In this document: positions 353 to 16,134 of the stretch, one piece after another | Numbering within the stretch: the first letter of the stretch is position 1 | Layout: the number at the start of each line of letters is the position of its first letter | Source of the DNA: an uncultured bacterium | GTDB taxonomy: Bacteria; Cyanobacteriota; Vampirovibrionia; Gastranaerophilales; Gastranaerophilaceae | Direction of reading: 5' to 3' | DNA: 36,124 nt | NCBI GenBank assembly: GCA_902797985.1 | Contig: CADBUZ010000023.1 | Location: 1 to 36,124, forward strand | Made by a program: the position numbers and the translations under genes | The notes under the pieces: generated by a model | Told to the model about the DNA's origin: nothing | Database searches by the model: none | What the model saw: the letters and a program-made list of their open reading frames with translations, nothing else

Positions 353-538
353 TAAATTATAGTTTAGCAATGAACGAAGTTCGTCGCTAAACTATGGTCG
401 TTAAGACGTTAAGTCGTTAAGACGTTAGGTTCATTTAGTCGGCAAAGCCGACTATTTTATAATAATATGTAAAATTGAACCTCACGACCTAGCGACCTAG
501 CGTCCTAGTATCTGTTTAGCTCGATAAACTATAATTTA
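353..538. mobile_element. MITE-like palindromic element, copy A
   Basis: A non-coding, fully palindromic unit with perfect 14-base terminal inverted repeats (TAAATTATAGTTTA at 353-366, its complement at 525-538). Inside the left end is a hairpin with a GAA loop (361-393). Then come four 8-base units of the form NCGTTAAG (398-429), a central hairpin TAGTCGGC-AAA-GCCGACTA (436-454), and three units CGACCTAG or CGTCCTAG (485-508) that pair back to the left arm, partly through G-U pairs. The right end is a shortened form of the GTTTATCGAG hairpin seen in copy B at 15980-16134. No transposase is encoded, so it would be non-autonomous. Confidence 0.7.
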
Positions 539-3012: not shown

Positions 3013-3115
3013 GAAAATAGTTTTATTTATGTTCTCAAGATAGTATTCCGGCTAGCAAAAAATATTTTTATGCGTGTTAAAATAGATGTATGAATTGAGG
3101 ATGAGGAAAAGATTT

Positions 3116-6100
3116 ATGGCAATGAATTTAGACGCACTTAGAAAAATGTTATCAACAAAAGAAAATGTTGAAATTATAGATATAAATGAACAATATAATC
3201 ATTGTTTGGGTACTGCTAACAATAGAGGAAATATTGTTCTATATTTTAAAGGGTTAACTGACGTTTCGGATTTTCAGTATACAAGAAGCGGTAGAACTCT
3301 TATGATTAATTATGGTGACAGACTAAGACAAAGGGTTTATATAAAAAATTATTTTGCTGATGATAAAGGTACTACTACAAAATCAATGGTAAAATATATA
3401 CGTTATGATAACCCAAATAGCACAAGTTCAAAAGATAAAACGATAGATGTTTCTATTATTGATTCAGGTGCTTATCATACTGAAGGAATAGAATATACTT
3501 ATAATAAAAAAGGTGTTGTAAGCGGAGCAACCGTATTTTCTGACACAATAAATATGTATGATAGTTTGGATGAGGCTATCGGGAAAAATAATAAAGGTTT
3601 GACTATTAATGCAGGCAAAGGAAACGATAGTATTACAGGTTCTAAATTTAATGATACTATTACAGGAGGTGTTGGGGCTAACACATATAATTTTGATTTT
3701 GGTGTGGTATCAGGTGCTGACACTATTAAATTAACTAAAGGTGAAACACTCACTTTGAATATCACAAATGCCGGCAGTCAAATCGCTTTAAACGAGTTGT
3801 CATATAAAAAATCAGGCAACGATTTGTATATTTATCAAATAGTTGGAGCTGATAAAACGGAATCTGACAATAAGCTTATTATAAAAAATTATTTTAAAAA
3901 CACAGATAAAGTTTCAATAGGTGATGTTAAATTGATTGATTTTATATCATCAGCAGAATATCCTGTTTTGAATATTATAGGAAAAGGTAAAATAAAAGGC
4001 ACTGATTATAATGATAACATTACAGGAAGTTTAAAAAATGACACAATCACAGCCGGAAAAGGTGATGATTTTATCTCTACAGCAGGTGGTAAAGATACAG
4101 TTGTTTTAACAGGTGAATATGGACACGATATTATTGATTCAATCGGAAGTTCTAAAGTTACTCTTAAGTTAAGTTCGTTTGACTCTAAAAACTATAGTTA
4201 TGACAGTAATAATTTAACTTATACGACTGATGAAAAATCAAGTTTTCAATATAATGATTTTATGTCAGCTGATAAAGATGCTGCTGATTTGTGGATTAGC
4301 GCAAAAAACAAATCTTATCATATAATTAATGAAAAAAGTAATTTAGAAACAGATTATTCTACGAATAAAAACAATAATGTAATTTTCTTATCCGCAGGTG
4401 ATAATCAAAAATATACAGGTGCTAAAAATCAAAAAGGGATAAACGTAATTTATTCCGTAAACGGAAATAATAGTTATGTATATCAAGGCGGTAAAGATAC
4501 TTATGTAGATTACGGTACAACATCTGATAATTATAGTGCTACTATCAACAAAAATACAAAACTTGTTATTGATGACAAAGGCGGTGTTGATAGTTTAGTT
4601 TTAAATAATAAGGTTGACGATTTAGCATTATTCTTCGACACTGATAGTGACAGTTTTGGAGAGGATTTGTATATATATAATGCAAAAACAATGACATATT
4701 CAAATTTAACTAATGCAATAAAATCTAATAGCTATAAAGGTTCTATCGAAATTGACGATTATTTTTCTGATGGGAAAATAGAAAATATTAAATACGGTGA
4801 AACTAGTTTTGATATGGATGGTTGGACTTTATATGCCAAAACAGAAGTTTCTGATTGGTTAAATTCGTTAGAAAATGTTAAATTACATAAATCAGTTAAG
4901 GATGTATTTTTAACAGGTACGAAAGCTGAAAAAGTATCCTTGACTAATTTGTTTAAAGCTTTGAATTATTCTGAATATCAAAAACTTTATAATTCAGCAG
5001 TTAAGTATTCTGATTATAAGTTTGTAAAAGAAGGAAATGACTTGAAGATATTTATATCAGGGGATTTGAATACATCATATGAAAATTATTTCACAGCTGA
5101 TGACTATGATTCGATATCTTTTTATGCATTAGATAATGAGGGTAATTTTGGTCTTTATGAAATGGGTTCAAAAGAAAATCCTATCCATGTTGTGGCTACA
5201 TCTGAAACTATAGATGGGACAAAATATCATGATGTAATTGAAACAAAAGGCGAAACTAATATTAATTTATATGAAAGTGATGACGAAGTTGTGTTCCTAA
5301 AAGATTACACTTCTGATAAAGTAGTCACTACTGCTAATGGTTCAAAGGACACTTTTGTGTTTGAAGATAAGGAATATACTGATTTTTATACAAAAGGAAC
5401 TTTATCAGGTGCATATAGCGCAGGTGATCCATTGATTATTAAAGATGGAAATGATTTGAAAATCGGTGATATTACTGTTAAAAATGTTGATGGTATGCCA
5501 AACGAAATTCAGCTTGTTGATAAAAACGGCAAAACAAAAAATATAATCATAGGACAAGGTACGATAAACGGAACTCATGAAAGTGAAATTATAATTGGTA
5601 GTAATTCTGCTGATGTAATTAATACAAACGGTAGAAACGATTTGGTTTATATGGGTGAAGGAAAAGATATTCTTAACCTTACATCAACAACAGGTGATGA
5701 AACAGGTAAAAACACCGCTGAAATGATAGGTATCGGAGGAACTCATTCTATAAGTAATGACTTGGATGTGCCGGCAATTAGTGTTTATAGCGCATCAGGT
5801 GACGATACATATAATACAACATTAAAAGATTTTGGATTGTATATAGAAGATTATGCAGGAACTGATACATTAAATATTACATATTCCGACAATAATTTAA
5901 TGTATTTGTTTGATGTTGTTAATCCAAAACATGCAAGTGAAAATCCTACTATATATACGGATTTAATGATTTGTGATAAGAGTCAATTTACATCTGCAGG
6001 CATGAGTGCATTCTCAAGTCTGTCAGGTTCGGGCATGAAAGCTATAATGGAATCTATGCAAGGAACATTCGGTTATGCATGGATTGATGATTATTATGGC

Positions 6101-6328
6101 GGAGCTCAAAAAATTGAAAATATTAATATAATCAATGAAACGGATGGAACAACATCTGCTTTGGATATTGATACAGAGATAGCTTCAACTCAGGCTAAAA
6201 TTGCAGCGTGGTTATCCTCAACCAGCGGTTTCTTTAAGCCTTCTCAAGATTATGCAACAGCTTGGGATGTTATTGAAGGCTCATCTACTTCAGATAAAAT
6301 GTATTTGGCTATGTTGTACATGAGTTAG
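3116..6328 (+). CDS. RTX-like (hemolysin-type Ca-binding repeat) large secreted protein
   Basis: 1070 residues, acidic and rich in Asn, Asp, Ser and Thr, with no N-terminal signal peptide. I chose the ATG at 3116 because GAGGAAAAG lies just upstream; an ATG 30 bases earlier lacks a site. Degenerate RTX nonapeptides (G-x-G-N-D-x-I form) occur at about residues 162-187 (NAGKGNDSITGS, NDTITGG), 288-325 (GTDYNDNITGS, GKGDDFIS), 696-710 and 815-850. A GDDTYN / AGTDTL block sits near 895. Many repeats have lost the second Gly or the Asp, so only some sites should bind calcium. Export by a type I system is the family norm, but no transporter genes are in the window. No protease or lipase domain was recognised; a surface-layer, adhesin or structural role is possible. 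Confidence 0.8.
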   Translation: MAMNLDALRKMLSTKENVEIIDINEQYNHCLGTANNRGNIVLYFKGLTDVSDFQYTRSGRTLMINYGDRLRQRVYIKNYFADDKGTTTKSMVKYIRYDNPNSTSSKDKTIDVSIIDSGAYHTEGIEYTYNKKGVVSGATVFSDTINMYDSLDEAIGKNNKGLTINAGKGNDSITGSKFNDTITGGVGANTYNFDFGVVSGADTIKLTKGETLTLNITNAGSQIALNELSYKKSGNDLYIYQIVGADKTESDNKLIIKNYFKNTDKVSIGDVKLIDFISSAEYPVLNIIGKGKIKGTDYNDNITGSLKNDTITAGKGDDFISTAGGKDTVVLTGEYGHDIIDSIGSSKVTLKLSSFDSKNYSYDSNNLTYTTDEKSSFQYNDFMSADKDAADLWISAKNKSYHIINEKSNLETDYSTNKNNNVIFLSAGDNQKYTGAKNQKGINVIYSVNGNNSYVYQGGKDTYVDYGTTSDNYSATINKNTKLVIDDKGGVDSLVLNNKVDDLALFFDTDSDSFGEDLYIYNAKTMTYSNLTNAIKSNSYKGSIEIDDYFSDGKIENIKYGETSFDMDGWTLYAKTEVSDWLNSLENVKLHKSVKDVFLTGTKAEKVSLTNLFKALNYSEYQKLYNSAVKYSDYKFVKEGNDLKIFISGDLNTSYENYFTADDYDSISFYALDNEGNFGLYEMGSKENPIHVVATSETIDGTKYHDVIETKGETNINLYESDDEVVFLKDYTSDKVVTTANGSKDTFVFEDKEYTDFYTKGTLSGAYSAGDPLIIKDGNDLKIGDITVKNVDGMPNEIQLVDKNGKTKNIIIGQGTINGTHESEIIIGSNSADVINTNGRNDLVYMGEGKDILNLTSTTGDETGKNTAEMIGIGGTHSISNDLDVPAISVYSASGDDTYNTTLKDFGLYIEDYAGTDTLNITYSDNNLMYLFDVVNPKHASENPTIYTDLMICDKSQFTSAGMSAFSSLSGSGMKAIMESMQGTFGYAWIDDYYGGAQKIENINIINETDGTTSALDIDTEIASTQAKIAAWLSSTSGFFKPSQDYATAWDVIEGSSTSDKMYLAMLYMS

Positions 6329-15373: not shown

Positions 15374-15982
15374 ATGTTAAAAAGAAAATGCAAAATTACA
15401 TTTATATCTCACGGTGAAACTGTATATTCTCAAGAAGGCAGAATATCAGACTCAGAAAAATACCCTCCGTTGACTGAAAATGGACAGGAAGAAATTGAAA
15501 AAGTATGTGAATATTTAAAAAAACGTGGAATTAAAAACGATAAAATATTTACAAGTCCCGCTGTCAGATGTATTCAAAGCGTTGAACCAATAACAAAATT
15601 ATTCAAAAAAGATTTTGAAGTTTTGGATAATTTATATGTTAGAAAATGCGGATGTTTAAACGGAAAAACATTTGAAACAGTTTCAAAACAATATTCTGAT
15701 GATTTCCCGACAATAGCAAACATAGATGTAAAAGATTGCGAAAAACTTGTAGATTTTAACAAAAGAGTACTGGATGAGATAACAAAATTAGTAAAATCAA
15801 ACCTTAACTCAAGATTGATAATAGTGACCTATCCAATGGTAATACAGTCAATAGTTGCACAAATTTTAAACGTAGAACCTAAAGATCAATATAAAATCCT
15901 AATAAAAACAGGCAGTTTGACGCAAATAAGTTTTTTTGAAAACTGGGCAAGCTTAATCTACTCCGGATATGTTCCGTTGTAA
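15374..15982 (+). CDS. Degenerate histidine phosphatase (phosphoglycerate mutase fold)
   Basis: 202 residues after AAAGAGG. The fold is recognisable: I-S-H-G-E-T at 11-16, the D-x-E-K-Y-P-P-L-T-x-x-G-Q-E substrate segment and T-S-P-A-V-R-C-I-Q-S. However, the first Arg of the R-H-G motif is Ser12, and the second catalytic His, normally in S-H-G near the C-terminus, is replaced by T-Y-P (Tyr153). His13 and the middle Arg remain. The missing residues suggest a non-catalytic family member with a binding or regulatory role, or decay. Its TAA stop is the first three bases of a MITE-like element, so the C-terminus may have been set by the insertion. It is divergent from the TPR gene. Confidence 0.8.
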   Translation: MLKRKCKITFISHGETVYSQEGRISDSEKYPPLTENGQEEIEKVCEYLKKRGIKNDKIFTSPAVRCIQSVEPITKLFKKDFEVLDNLYVRKCGCLNGKTFETVSKQYSDDFPTIANIDVKDCEKLVDFNKRVLDEITKLVKSNLNSRLIIVTYPMVIQSIVAQILNVEPKDQYKILIKTGSLTQISFFENWASLIYSGYVPL

Positions 15983-16134
15983 ATTAAAGTTTAGCAAACG
16001 AAGTTTGCTAAACAGTGAATAGGTGAATAGTGAATAAGTGACTAAGTATAAATCTTATTCACATAGTCACTTAATCACTTAATCACTTAATCACTTTAAA
16101 GTTTATCGAGCGAAGCTCGATAAACTTTAATTTA
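15980..16134. mobile_element. MITE-like palindromic element, copy B
   Basis: Same build as copy A at 353-538. It has perfect 14-base terminal inverted repeats (TAAATTAAAGTTTA at 15980-15993, complement at 16121-16134), one base different from copy A. The left hairpin GTTTAGCAAAC-GAA-GTTTGCTAAAC spans 15989-16013. The left arm carries 7-8-base GTGAATA-type units (about 16013-16045) and the right arm five 8-base units (16055-16094), three of them TTAATCAC. The right hairpin AGTTTATCGAGC-GAA-GCTCGATAAACT spans 16100-16126. It has no coding capacity. The inner repeat word differs completely from copy A while the ends are conserved. Confidence 0.75.

Follow-up and report, generated by a model that had tools for sequence, protein, structure and literature searches.

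The two palindromic elements of the window (the whole stretch of 36,124 nucleotides analysed here), copies A and B, represent separate subfamilies of a single genus-specific family, made up of small non-coding elements whose positions, but not whose contents, are shared between species. Fourteen sites of the own genome (G000, 1.86 Mb) were compared with sister species (labelled G001 to G007; sites carry L numbers), and 11 of these hold an element or a remnant in at least one sister species, nearly always to the base. The interior at a shared site is never of the same type in the same orientation. The reading that we favour, with about even confidence, is that the sites are long-lived while exchange between copies replaces what they contain.

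Both copies lie where the preliminary description placed them (Table 1), and their 14-base inverted ends differ, as it held, at a single base (TAAATTATAGTTTA versus TAAATTAAAGTTTA). The 8-base arrays were likewise confirmed as inverted arms in each copy, and both copies fold far better than their shuffled versions (z of -5.9 for A and -12.8 for B). GAA-loop hairpins had been reported at the ends; they are present at three of the four, the right end of copy A being degenerate (GTTTAGCTCGATAAAC). There are no Rfam matches above the gathering score within the window. A histidine-phosphatase-like ORF (15374-15982) ends in a stop codon formed by the first three bases of copy B (15980-15982), and several other copies (L004, L006, L042) also seem to abut a stop codon. 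Elsewhere in the window, a 129-nt direct repeat with 76% identity (1401-1529 and 2198-2326) lies in two neighbouring ORFs, probably tandem paralogues, and an ORF of 1080 aa (3086-6328) carries RTX calcium-binding repeats.

Table 1. Features of copies A and B in the window.
Feature	Position	Strand	Basis and remarks
Copy A, whole type-A element	353..538	+	Upstream of hsp20 gene; 9 related copies aligned
Copy A, left end TAAATTATAGTTTA	353..366	+	Sequence; probable AATT duplication 355-358 inside target TA-AATT-TA
Copy A, left end hairpin GTTTAGC..GAAC-GAA-GTTC..GCTAAAC	362..392	+	Sequence
Copy A, left arm GTCGTTAA GACGTTAA GTCGTTAA GACGTTAG	397..428	+	8-base word array
Copy A, centre hairpin TAGTCGGC-AAA-GCCGACTA	436..454	+	Sequence, folding
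Copy A, right arm, inverted, CGACCTAG x3	485..508	+	8-base word array
Copy A, right end TAAACTATAATTTA	525..538	-	Sequence; probable AATT copy 533-536
Copy B, whole type-B element	15980..16134	+	10 related copies
Copy B, left end TAAATTAAAGTTTA	15980..15993	+	Sequence; probable AATT copy 15982-15985
Copy B, left hairpin GTTTAGCAAAC-GAA-GTTTGCTAAAC	15989..16013	+	Folding
Copy B, left arm, GTGAATA(G) words	16014..16047	+	Word array, folding
Copy B, right arm, TTAATCAC words	16054..16096	+	Word array, folding
Copy B, right hairpin GTTTATCGAGC-GAA-GCTCGATAAAC	16101..16125	+	Folding
Copy B, right end TAAACTTTAATTTA	16121..16134	-	Sequence; probable AATT copy 16129-16132

The expectation that these ends recur elsewhere in the genome was borne out: the 15-base end AAATTAWAGTTTAKC has 39 exact places in the 1.86 Mb, against zero for its reversed control. 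Type A, built of the word GWCGTTAA, has nine copies with a mean identity of 96.5%, type B has ten with 87% identity, and type C has two (at C8 and C25), which carry CTCTCC/GAGAGG stems and are without octamers. One decayed copy of a GAAAATTG type is also present, and two mosaic elements (L021 and L036) mix GGCACTAG words with type-A words (GACGTTAG). Alignment shows that copies differ in entire 8-base words and in the loop at hairpin centres, which flips from GAA to TTC. The inner words had been thought specific to each copy, and this idea was dropped once the own-genome copies were read and aligned, as the words mark subfamilies with many copies each; neither the word of A nor that of B was therefore made separately in a single copy. 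The elements are short (140-330 bp), non-coding, multi-copy (39 exact ends) and bounded by terminal inverted repeats, as in MITEs, and they combine conserved end modules with variable inner tandem modules, as in BOX elements.

Four sister species (G002, G004, G005 and G006) show the end hairpin as a full palindrome of 41-49 bp, TAAATTAT(A/T)GTTTA-core-TAAAC(T/A)ATAATTTA, found solo as well as joined to arms. Its core varies (GAGC, AAAC, GGCTGA, AAGGAC, GATGAAC and others) and pairing is always kept, so that the earlier suggestion of selection for structure rather than sequence fits these end hairpins. A large element begins with the palindrome, followed by a left arm of some four words, the centre, the right arm and the second end. 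When read by eye, own type A and the GGAAAGTTGAAA type of G006 have a common centre (TATTTTATAATAATATACAGCC versus TATTTATAATAATTACAGCC) and different arm words, and in two G005 elements (L088 and L230) a type-C segment replaces the end-hairpin core next to octamer arms. The family thus has conserved outer ends, (G)TAAATTAWWGTTTA, variable but perfectly paired end-hairpin cores, and modular interiors. Two unusual arrangements were seen in G006. A solo palindrome at L131 (approximately 3404-3447) lies exactly within a ~12 bp inverted repeat (ATGGCAAGTTTG / CAAACTTGCCAT), as though it had entered the loop of a second hairpin, and at L169 (7611-7837) and L192 the octamer arms are broken by a different segment of ~100 bp, which has stems of its own and is a nested element from another family.

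The family appears to be restricted to a single genus of MAGs from the rumen, with tens to more than 100 elements in the own genome and sister species. The 15-mer ends of the ATAG/AAAG form number 39 in G000, 41 in G002 and 243 in G006, the latter two being of the same genus as the own genome, and none in G005; the other relatives searched have 0-2 matches per genome, which is the level of the reversed control. G005 has a sister version with ATTG ends (TAAATTATTGTTTA), of which there are 31 palindromes there, one in G004, and none in G000, G002 or G006; the ends are species-specific. The family is absent from G001, G003 and G007 of the same genus. A wide scan with the strict palindrome against one genome per species (257 Gb) gave 93 stretches, and among the matches listed all are in RUG12841, SRR11784292_bin.17, RUG770 and RUG11040, where we take the RUG names to be those of a rumen series. 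Free arrays of ATTTTCCATTTTCCATTTTCCATTT, unconnected with palindromic ends, were also observed in the right flank of L004 (G000:C3 near 22050) and at dozens of places in G002, G004, G005 and G006, with none in G001 or G007 among the matches listed.

Outside the hairpin, TAAATTA is 96-99% conserved in copies anchored by the inner stem only, and a G occupies the next outer position in 63%. From the sequences, the target is probably TA-AATT-TA with AATT duplicated on insertion, a reading drawn from about three informative empty sites. Two of the few empty sites that keep AATT, with diverged flanks, are in G002 (TAAATTTG at L021 and TGTAAATTTTTATTC at L002); the own copy reads TAAATT..AATTTGCAATT against AAATAAATTTGCAATTT in G002, and G006 has ATAATTTAACATTG (AATTTA) at the site of copy A, which could instead be a remnant. 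Duplication of TA alone was our first reading and was dropped, as AATT is retained at empty sites. The element proper is then, most economically, probably AWAGTTTA..TAAACTWT. Exact TAAATTTA is unoccupied at 297 places in G000, and two of its seven occurrences in the window are intergenic.

Comparison of sites between species, in which the G006 sites and part of those in G005 lie at the ends of draft contigs, shows that the distance from the conserved anchor is equal where measured, except at L021, shared with G006 at a 4-base offset, and at the copy B site in G006 (6 versus 7 bases). Four species have an element 21 bases from the lepA start codon, each with an interior of its own, namely type A in the own genome, GGCACTAG in G002, GTGATTAA in G006, and type C with octamers in G005, and the lepA site is empty in G001, G003, G004 and G007. 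The fabD-fabG site has type B versus type C, and at L014 type C stands against octamers in two species; at L019, L038 and L008 the own element is matched by an octamer element in G006. At L016 the own genome has type A, G006 a GGAAAA type and G005 an octamer remnant. The site of copy A holds type C in G005. At that of copy B, G006 has octamers, G005 has other words, and G004 has the remnant of an ATTG-type end. Both species have type C at L031, but in opposite orientations. Sharing at the same position with a sister species was not found for L006, L042 and L002. All five of the type-A sites tested hold something else in another species, and since type-A copies differ by 3.5% and flanks by ~14-16% between species (whose tree is poorly resolved), the similarity among the copies of one species is too high for them to be as old as speciation. 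Recent type-A copies at positions used by other lineages point either to replacement in place or to repeated use of a rare target.

Replacement by exchange would begin with insertion into TA-AATT-TA, probably with duplication of AATT to judge from the few empty sites, by an enzyme that we did not find here. An occupied site would then stay occupied across species divergence, and gene conversion between copies, via the shared palindromic ends and word arrays, would repeatedly replace the interior; the same exchange would homogenise the ends, so that each species comes to have its own ends and the interiors at the same site differ. Slippage would alter the number of words per arm, and flips at palindrome centres would turn GAA loops into TTC. 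Counted in its favour are the different interiors at the same position, the ends exclusive to each species, the closeness of the type-A copies despite the presence of something else in another species at all five type-A sites tested, the differences in word number and loop orientation, and the mosaics, whose mixed arms argue for recombination between copies. Counted against it, a replacement event was never caught directly, the homology between subfamilies is short (ends of 14-40 bp), which is little for ordinary recombination, and TAAATTTA is a specific target, so that independent insertions can reuse a site. Such reuse, the main rival, in which MITE-like elements insert independently in each species at this rare and strongly preferred palindromic intergenic target, is possible though somewhat doubtful. 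The conservation of TAAATTA and the limited supply of exact targets agree with it, and interiors and ends peculiar to each species follow from it at once. However, the target is gone in most element-free species (TAAATAC and TATAATTA at lepA, TAAATAC at L038, none at L016) even though the elements look recent, and for some ten sites to agree to the base across two to four species, the target would have to have survived only at places that were used later. We prefer replacement in place because the target, though limited in number, is mostly not preserved at unoccupied orthologous sites. The preliminary proposal that interiors are rewritten after insertion with the plan kept gains support from the differing interiors at orthologous sites, the mosaics and the shared centre with other arm words, but not as regards a word arising within one copy.

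Three further accounts are less probable. The palindromic ends could act as landing pads of a site-persistent cassette, with a dedicated recombinase or transposase exchanging what lies inside (arms, centre or core) while the chromosomal site stays fixed, which we consider unlikely. Somewhat less likely again, the elements could be functional structures (bidirectional terminators, promoter insulators or mRNA-end hairpins) under selection for folding, with sequence drifting through compensatory change; strong folding, intergenic sites beside housekeeping genes, retention of sites, and cores that are varied yet perfectly paired would all be in keeping with this, but at shared sites the interiors represent separate subfamilies, closely matched elsewhere in the same genome, rather than drifted versions of one another, and the family is missing from three sister species. 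It is highly improbable that the interior differences stem from misassembly of repeats in the draft genomes. Many G006 contigs do terminate inside elements, but complete elements are found inside contigs next to unique flank (G002 L228, G005 L230, G006 L264, own L010 and copy B), the first arm at contig ends is still contiguous with unique flank, and such errors cannot produce species-specific ends.

The search for a mobiliser covered several transposase families in draft assemblies, which break at repeats, and among these families no transposase with matching ends was found; the MITE-like character proposed earlier is fair as to size, inverted ends and a probable target duplication, though no parent transposase came to light among these families. 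No IS630-type DDE_3 was found in the eight genomes, and an IS630/Tc1 parent was rejected; the one DDE_Tnp_1, in G006, is broken. No matching ends lie beside the inspected rve genes. Pairs of ends 0.7-3.3 kb apart were considered as autonomous copies and rejected, since where inspected they enclose housekeeping or unrelated genes, and the four inspected end-bounded intervals contain no transposase ORF. At L273 (1837-4189, G000:C45) a protein of 559 aa that weakly matches rve is followed by a 226-aa ATPase-like ORF, and from this arrangement the pair is possibly of Mu type or TnsB/TnsC type; as a mobiliser this Mu-like transposase of own contig 45 was discarded, having no matching ends nearby. 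The own genome also has three Y1 transposase genes that are RAYT-like, of which one contains in-frame stops (L112 1-2000, L114 1280-2080 and L107, on own contigs 20, 43 and 14). Beside the own-genome RAYT genes that were inspected lie hairpins with a GTAG tag (GGTGCGTC..GACGCACC, GGTCGGC..GCCGACC), never family ends. These hairpins and RAYT-like genes are a separate REP system in the genus, and a RAYT/REP origin is excluded, as the Y1 transposases are tied to their own GTAG hairpins and the family is without the GTAG tag.

In agreement with the preliminary description, we found no family with this plan in the open literature, a scope outside which most subscription journals lie. Earlier work has reportedly dealt with very small mobile repeats in cyanobacteria. 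Closest among the known kinds are BOX elements and the GC clusters of yeast mitochondria. In Streptococcus pneumoniae and S. suis, BOX elements are small, multi-copy, intergenic modular repeats for which TIRs and TSDs are reported, and in S. suis differing end modules flank the same inner modules (PMC3049150). The likeness is one of architecture, conserved end modules flanking a varying number of inner tandem modules; unlike BOX, the elements here have two inverted arms of 7-8 base words in several unrelated word sets, ends that can be full palindromes, and shared sites with different interiors between species. The yeast GC clusters, such as GC42, are ~42-nt hairpins, solo or merged into composites, with a short putative target duplication (PMC4478555), and with other mitochondrial hairpin elements (PMC2800124) they share merger, shuffling and differing forms at the same position; the present family differs from the yeast clusters in residing on a bacterial chromosome and in its longer octamer arms and different target. 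REPINs and BIMEs moved by RAYT (PMC3116915, PMC8266576) are also dispersed, non-coding, intergenic inverted hairpin pairs, but the family lacks their GTAG tag, and the RAYTs of the genus have GTAG-tagged hairpins of their own. Cyanobacterial heptamer arrays (STRR) and the TAACTGA repeats of Beggiatoaceae (PMC4679880) resemble it as intergenic arrays of 7-8 base words, but are direct arrays without conserved inverted ends.

In the usual view, small palindromic repeats are insertions that later decay. Here the same positions carry one plan with different content and species-specific ends in up to four species, which offers a test of in-place recombination versus reuse of a rare target, in a system that is testable by virtue of its compactness (units from 41 bp) and its clean empty relatives. 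If a cassette system were indeed at work, the site would outlive the species and its content would be exchanged.
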